From: an uncultured archaeon | GTDB lineage: Archaea; Thermoproteota; Nitrososphaeria_A; Caldarchaeales; Calditenuaceae | Direction of reading: 5' to 3' | Assembly: GCA_938017985.1 (NCBI GenBank) | Contig: CALIKS010000001.1 | Span: 86,745 to 150,744, forward strand | DNA: 64,000 nt | In this document: piece after piece, positions 16,905-18,700 of the stretch | Position numbering within the stretch: the first letter of the stretch is position 1 | How the letters are laid out: each line of letters opens with the position of its first letter | The notes under the pieces: generated by a model | Databases searched by the model: none | The model's input: only the letters and a program-made list of their open reading frames with translations | Told to the model about the DNA's origin: nothing | Position numbers and translations under genes: made by a program

Positions 16905-18598
16905 TTATAGTTTTGTTGTATTCGTTTTATTTCTCAATTCTTCAATTTTGCGGTCAGGAATCTTCTTGAAGAGTGGATAAGGTCGTTTTATCATGTGCCC
17001 GGCCTCTATAGGTGTTGTTCCTGCATTAAGCCAAGCATCTCCATCTGGGATCTTTATGTCCAGCATCTCTCTCATCTTTATCGCTGATACTGGTATAAAC
17101 GGCTCTAATAGTATCGAGAGACACTTAACGACTTGTGCTGCAACATAGAGTGTTGTAGCTGCTCGATTAGGTTCAGTTTTTATCTGATGCCATGGCTCTT
17201 TCTTTGTCAAATACATATTTCCCCGGCTAGACAATTCGGTGAGAATTTCAAGTGACTGTCTCATCCTCAATTCATCCATAAATTTTGATGCCTTAATAGG
17301 CGCCTCACGTATAAATGAGAGCAGTTCGTTGTCAAGCTCGTCGAAAGTGTGTGGCGAAGGAATCAGTCCATTAAAATGATTATAGATAAAAGTCAAAACC
17401 CTATGTACAAAGTTTCCAATATTGTCGTTTAGATCGTTGTTTATTGTTTTTTGAAAATCATCCCAGCTGAAGTTTGTATCACTCTTCTCTGGCCTTATCT
17501 TTATGAGGTAATATCGCCAATAATCGGCGGGAAAATAGCTAAGAGCTTGGTCAAGCCAGACACCTATTCCTCGACTCTTAGAGAATTTTTGTCCCTCAAA
17601 CATCAAGTACTCAGTTGAGGAAACATTCCAGGGAAGAGTTAGTCTCTCATCGTAAGCCATTAGTAAAGCGGGCAGGATGATTGTATGGAAGGGTATATTA
17701 TCTTTTCCGATAAAGTATACACTTCTCGTTTCTGAGTCCAACCAATATTTTTTCCATAATTCTTTATCACCTTTTTTTATGGACCACTCAATAGTAGCAG
17801 TAATGTATCCTATAACCGCCTCAAACCATACATATATCGTCTTGTCCTCTGCTCCAGGAAAGGGAGCCGGAATCCCCCATAGATTATCTCTAGTTATTGC
17901 CCTCGGCCTTAATCCTTCATTAATCCAGCTGAGTGAAAAATTCTTTGCGTTTTCTGGCAGCCTGTCATTTTGCAAAATCATCTCTTTAAGCTTTTCAGAG
18001 AATCGAGGGAGATCAAAATACCAATGTTTCGTCTTTTTGATAATAGGAGTCGAGCCACAGATACTACATTTACTATCCAATAATTCAAGAGGCTCAAGAA
18101 CTACACCGCAGTTTTCACATTGGTCACCTCTAGCCGATGGATAACCACACTTAGGGCATGTTCCAATTACGAATCGATCGGGTAAAAATCTCTTACAGTT
18201 TTCGCAGAAGAGCTGATCGACATCTATTGAGTAGATATATCCTTTTTCATAGATTTTAAAGAAAAACTCTTTACAGAACGCTATGTGTACATCATTATGC
18301 GTACGAGTATAATTGTCAAATGATAGTGAAAACTTATTGAAGAGGTCCGTGACTATTGAGTGCATCTCGTCTGTAAGAATCTTTGGGTGTACTCCCCTCC
18401 TTATCGCTTCAACCTCGATGGGAGTTCCATGCTCATCAGATCCACTTACAAATACTACGTCCTCTCCCCGTAGCCTAAGATAACGAGCATAGACATCAGC
18501 GGATAAAGCTGAACCTATAAGCGTGCCTAGATGCGGTACGTTATTTATGTAGGGCCACGCTGAGCATACAAGCCACTTGCCGAGCTCTAATCACCCAT
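16905..18598 (-). pseudogene. metG: Methionyl-tRNA synthetase with apparent 1-nt deletion near the 5' end (may be functional if this is a sequence error)
   Basis: 16905-18365 is the annotated ORF; codons 18366-18590 remain in frame and read LELGKWLVCSAWPYINNVPHLGTLIGSALSADVYARYLRLRGEDVVFVSGSDEHGTPIEVEAIRRGVHPKILTDEM, with no ATG/GTG/TTG. Confidence 0.85.
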
Positions 18599-18700
18599 TA
18601 TCAAATATCACGTTAATTCCTTTATAAACACTTATTTCTGTATAACATAAAAACGAAGGTAAAATCATAAAAGATTAAAAATATCATGTTTTAAAATTAT

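Follow-up and report, generated by a model that had tools for sequence, protein, structure and literature searches.

The question raised by this locus is where the translation of an essential methionyl-tRNA synthetase (MetRS) begins, as its reading frame enters a well-preserved N-terminus without passing a usable start codon. The window, that is, the whole stretch of 64,000 nucleotides analysed here (contig C1, 86745-150744), belongs to an assembly of 1.63 Mb in 72 contigs that is 83% complete. On the minus strand, a TGA at 18593-18591 is followed by TTA GAG CTC GGC AAG TGG, and the frame remains open to the stop ending at 16905. The earlier note had described exactly this, an intact MetRS N-terminus preceded by a TGA and lacking ATG, GTG and TTG. 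It was also correct in placing the first canonical start at ATG 18365, which is 75 codons in and would, if used, cost the protein its HIGH-type motif.

The gene itself is inconspicuous in all other respects. Its whole-protein scores exceed the curated cut-offs of NCBIfam NF001100 (609.5 bits against 587) and TIGR00398 (557.8 bits against 336), and the translation contains both class I motifs, PHLGT (HIGH-type) and KFSKS (KMSKS), which places it in the MetRS family. A profile search of the 72 contigs returned a single full-length MetRS (557.6 bits against a cut-off of 336). The suspicion that this might be a decaying copy beside an intact second metG did not hold, as no second MetRS was found in the 83%-complete assembly, where the remaining matches were of the Leu/Ile/Val-RS type. 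With 559 open codons and one full-length match in a genome of this completeness, metS is a functional single-copy gene. Conserved N-termini were further screened in 508 homologous gene pairs of the window genome (G000, 635 kb read) and a second species, G014; many of the pairwise candidates turned out to be antisense shadow ORFs or rRNA and were removed. Among the protein genes, the conserved N-terminus without a canonical start in either species was by far the longest in MetRS (74 and 44 residues). Because it is outstanding among 508 gene pairs of two species, the start-less N-terminus is not a matter of chance.

Read from 18596 on the minus strand, the start region is GGGTGA-TTAGAG-CTC-GGCAAGTGG. 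The 16S gene ends in GGATCACCTCC both on contig C1 and in G014, and in canonical genes of these two genomes the GGTG spacer peaks at 7-8 nt before the start; the spacer of metS is that of ordinary canonical starts. The mini-frame and the TATA-like box were found at the positions given by the earlier note (Table 1).

Table 1. Features of the metS start region and of the cimA gene discussed in the text.
Feature	Position	Strand	Remarks
metS/metG coding sequence, read from the putative CTC start	16905..18584	minus	559 codons; open frame, profile scores, single copy
Putative non-canonical start codon CTC	18582..18584	minus	conserved in relatives; aligned with ATG/GTG/TTG of other archaea; nucleotide-level constraint
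Shine-Dalgarno GGGTGA	18591..18596	minus	complementary to 16S tail GGATCACCTCC
Spacer from GGTG to CTC	18591-18585	minus	7 nt
TATA-like box TTTATAAA	18621..18628	minus	some 40 nt ahead of CTC; the leader would then measure about 15-25 nt
Mini-frame ATG GGT GAT TAG	18587..18598	minus	not conserved; GGTGA is the conserved part
cimA (outside the window)	G000 C1:314661-316241 (L115:14661-16241; L261)	minus	GGTG-N5-ATC-GAT conserved in most of the order

Comparison with relatives, as the earlier note had advised, showed a CTC or CTA in all homologous MetRS genes read in the order (Caldarchaeales), and the same start-less N-terminus in the genes of one MetRS type (type A). The MetRS search gave a match in all 61 genomes, a few incomplete ones yielding a weak paralogue only; upstream regions were read for the fetched loci, and the start was read in 38 order genomes with a homologous MetRS. 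All 38 have CTC (19 genomes) or CTA (19 genomes; G002 counted one codon further along), across two MetRS types, A and B, that are about 42% identical. GGTG lies exactly 7 nt before this codon in 30 of the 38 genes; some type-B genomes have a spacer of 6. In type A, which includes the window gene, GGTG-N7-CTC/CTA is present in 13/13 genes, and all 13 lack ATG, GTG and TTG between the upstream stop and codon +14. No conservation is seen in the one or two codons just ahead of CTC/CTA, and a number of genomes have stops there, such as TAA in L063, TGA TAG in L068 and TAG in L057, which makes CTC/CTA the first possible codon in these genomes. A second clade of the phylum, around genome G053 (families f5, f14 and f18-f24), which may represent Bathyarchaeia, carries GGAGGTG-N7-CTC in 25 of 27 full-length genes, the exceptions being TTG in L245 and CTG in L248.

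In a tree of 85 MetRS proteins, the CTC/CTA genes fall into types A and B of the order and into the G053 clade; the Sulfolobales and Desulfurococcales relatives have canonical starts. At the aligned codon, outgroup archaea have ATG (the Aeropyrum-like L042), GTG (L025-L027, L045) or TTG (L022), and CTC therefore sits at the start position itself. About 13 genomes, mainly of the f3 genera g12/g13, hold an in-frame GTG or ATG 2-3 codons upstream of CTC/CTA. These codons could be usable as starts, which counts against CTC/CTA; they lie 0-2 nt from the Shine-Dalgarno sequence, which is too near, and CTC/CTA is still fixed in these genomes. A TATA-like box was detected at -58..-34 in 20 of 25 type-B relatives (about 1.5 expected), with matches clustering at -50 to -41, and in 6 of 13 type-A genes (about 0.6 expected); no such cluster was seen before the CTC of the G053 clade (1/25). 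Judged by the position of the box, the metS leader would hold little but the Shine-Dalgarno sequence. In the divergent MetRS of L258 (G083, f22), a TTC stands at the start position after GGAGGCG-N6, and no ATG, GTG or TTG follows until codon 21.

The codon is constrained beyond the residue that it would encode. The 63 CTN-start genes have C as third base in 42 cases, A in 19, G in 2 and T in none, with about seven third-base changes on the tree; at 36/36 control four-fold sites of the same genes, where first and second base are fixed, all four bases occur. Within the G053 clade (the two non-CTC rows, L245 and L248, being left out), CTC is the sole single-codon column among 147 conserved columns, and the other conserved leucines are each encoded by four to six different codons. 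Genome-wide leucine usage would freely permit CTT and CTG. The lack of a canonical start, the Shine-Dalgarno spacing and this nucleotide-level conservation together suggest that the start codon is conserved by selection. Comparison thus supports both site and codon, and translation of metS very probably starts at CTC, or at CTA in some relatives. A non-canonical start is the sole survivor among the alternatives that the earlier note had offered.

We posit that the ribosome would bind the GGTGA Shine-Dalgarno sequence on a short-leader MetRS mRNA and begin 7 nt downstream of GGTG at the leucine codon CUC/CUA, giving the N-terminus (M/L)GKWLVCSAWPY, as in the MetRS of Desulfurococcales. The ordinary initiator Met-tRNA (anticodon CAU) would be forced by the Shine-Dalgarno sequence onto the mismatched codon, and the amino acid inserted at CTC/CTA would be Met via Met-tRNAi. 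Two mismatches to CAU should make initiation at this codon very inefficient, which counts against this model. One initiator tRNA, with a CAT anticodon and normal features, was identified in G014 and the part of G000 that was read, and no initiator-like tRNA-Leu was found in either; an altered initiator tRNA or genetic code was rejected on these grounds. The factor aIF1, which discriminates against non-canonical start codons (PMC6237735; Hasenohrl et al. cited in PMC8211752), is present in 15 of 16 genomes searched. It was not found in the 83%-complete window genome, and its loss was rejected as a cause because the 15 relatives have it.

MetRS is not the only gene of these archaea with a candidate non-canonical start. 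Two f2 genomes, L291 (G012) and L292 (G015), have another MetRS type (about 32% identical) with GGTG-N7/8-ACG and no canonical start nearby, apparently an independent instance of a metS gene with a non-canonical start. The next conserved case in the 508-pair screen is the citramalate synthase gene cimA (TIGR00977, 608 bits). Its start region reads GGGGTGTCTGA-ATC-GAT; in several genomes, a TGA immediately precedes the ATC. ATC and GAT are the sole single-codon columns among 198 conserved ones. In L263, the Shine-Dalgarno sequence, ATC and GAT are kept although three codons are inserted behind them. ATC (spacer 5) appears the more plausible start over GAT (spacer 8). Three f3 genomes have TTC at the ATC position, and a search for cimA around G053 gave no match at 1e-100.

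A scan for non-canonical starts anchored on Shine-Dalgarno sequences returned 35 candidates in G014, mostly likely artefacts, and seven in G000, MetRS included. Several genes drew attention during this work. An RtcA-like gene (L212:10193-11278, minus strand, G000 C7) has an apparent CTG start after GGTGA-N6, a CPSF-like gene (L214 from about 3339, plus strand, G000 C20) has ATA where G014 has ATG, and a nucleotidyltransferase gene has a CTG start candidate; each of the three is a candidate from a single genome. An adenylosuccinate-lyase-like gene (G014 C1:701843-703231, plus strand, L155) shows 61 conserved residues without a canonical start, with GAGGAG-N6-CTC before the conserved block. Near a GHGG-TLDP-like motif (G000 C1 at about 23790, plus strand, L101, and G014 at about 451190) a conserved frame is broken, possibly by a cbf5-type archaeal intron. 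A eukaryote-type ubiquitin-conjugating enzyme E2 domain is encoded at G000 C65:17265-17666 and also in G014 (1.437 Mb) and G017; the E2 of G014 had no counterpart in 14 control genomes. Candidatus Caldiarchaeum subterraneum is known to carry a eukaryote-type ubiquitin E2 (PMC5654768), in line with the assignment of the order to Caldarchaeales (Aigarchaeota); the relatives of the window genome group with Thermoproteota.

Why such a codon should be kept is a separate matter from where translation starts. Selection may preserve it because it limits MetRS synthesis, or because it ties MetRS to initiation stringency or to the supply of Met-tRNAi. With slightly more doubt than belief, we propose that the poor start codon is conserved in order to regulate MetRS. 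A still more tentative extension is a small archaeal regulon under unusable-looking starts (metS with CUC/CUA, the f2 metS apparently with ACG, and cimA with AUC), in which translation would respond to charged initiator tRNA or aIF1 stringency, or in which metS would start with leucine; MetRS synthesis could thereby adjust to the supply of Met-tRNA.

The rival that survives best, although we consider it unlikely, is that CTC/CTA is a tolerated poor start inherited by drift and free of any regulatory role. The same genomes do hold other non-canonical starts, such as the CTG candidates in rtcA and the nucleotidyltransferase gene and the ATA in the CPSF-like gene. Yet a single base change, to CTG, would strengthen the start, and CTC/CTA has been kept across two clades, two MetRS types and about seven third-base changes, with the apparently convergent ACG in a third MetRS type pointing in the same direction. 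Against the regulatory proposal itself stands that CTT and CTG are shunned about equally at the metS start, a pattern that plain weakness of the codon explains only in part.

This choice of codons is what an elongator Leu-tRNA might account for, if it decoded the codon as a true leucine start and so freed MetRS synthesis from charged initiator Met-tRNA. Only CTC and CTA are used, which form Watson-Crick pairs with GAG and UAG anticodons, CTG is almost absent although it is the codon nearest to AUG, and the arrangement would make biological sense for MetRS. Against it stand the lack of any tRNA-Leu with initiator features in G014 and the part of G000 read, the apparent ACG start of the f2 genomes, and the avoidance of CTT, which a GAG anticodon can read. 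In addition, aIF2 is specific for Met-tRNAi. We therefore give this reading little credence.

The cause favoured by the earlier note, a T dropped in sequencing or assembly from a real start ATG GGT GAT TTA GAG, can practically be dismissed. The ATG of the window genome does lie at the right distance from the TATA box, but none of the relatives has it: the remaining order genomes and 25 genomes of the second clade share the lack of a start or the CTC/CTA, all same-order type-A relatives being without a canonical start in the same way, and GGTGAT represents the conserved Shine-Dalgarno sequence (GGTGA) and not codons 2-3. The leaderless transcript suggested for this ATG falls with it, as the ATG is specific to the window genome. 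The feature reported there is thus real and unusual and the non-canonical start stands, while the missing base does not. Hardly more credible is a start at the GTG inside GGTGA followed by a +1 frameshift; most genomes have this GTG, shifted by one base relative to the MetRS frame, but its frame meets a stop before the slip site in L018 (GTG AGA TAA), L019, L235, L239 and L243, no Shine-Dalgarno sequence precedes it, no slippery sequence is conserved, and the spacer of 6 in some type-B genomes does not fit. Introns occur in archaeal protein genes, but a hidden upstream exon, or RNA editing, that provides an AUG is equally far-fetched with a TATA box 40-50 nt upstream that leaves a leader of about 15-25 nt, an in-frame stop directly before the start in many genomes, and a Shine-Dalgarno sequence correctly spaced to CTC.

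Initiation at CTC/CTA with a possible regulatory role resembles known systems in part. The bacterial infC gene (IF3) has an AUU start under autogenous control, according to the works listed in PMC9845219 (Butler et al., 1987; Brombach and Pon, 1987). Both infC and metS are translation-machinery genes with a conserved poor start codon behind a Shine-Dalgarno sequence, and a poor start codon preserved in evolution, one mark of infC-like control, was found for metS. They differ in that AUU is one position off AUG and CUC/CUA two, and in that metS encodes an archaeal aminoacyl-tRNA synthetase; autocontrol has been demonstrated for infC and is for metS a proposal by analogy. By analogy with infC, the start codon of aIF1 was examined as well and proved to be ATG in those genomes that were read. 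The fungal cpc-1/GCN4 homologues share deeply conserved non-AUG initiation in a gene tied to amino-acid supply, but they are eukaryotic and involve near-cognate codons, N-terminal extensions and uORFs (PMC5487733), whereas CTC/CTA would be the sole start of metS on a short-leader prokaryotic mRNA. Non-AUG starts of chloroplasts are likewise kept in evolution and proposed to tune protein level; they belong to another system, and the accessible part of that source reports no CUC/CUA start (PMC9845219). Work on archaeal aIF1 stringency concerns a discriminating factor that these genomes also have, and its accessible text does not describe a natural archaeal CUC/CUA start (PMC6237735; PMC8211752). 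A full-text search of the open literature, with most subscription journals outside its scope, found no description of CTC/CUC/CTA/CUA start codons.

Starts of this kind lead gene callers to shorten genuine genes or to miss them; in the present case, the mechanical ORF call cuts 75 residues, including the catalytic HIGH motif. For the biology of these archaea, the finding would mean that an essential synthetase, which supplies the substrate for all initiation, itself starts at a codon barely recognisable to the initiator tRNA, and that this has been preserved in two archaeal clades. The metS start may thus offer a direct way to study the tolerance of archaeal ribosomes for mismatched start codons and the use that they make of them.
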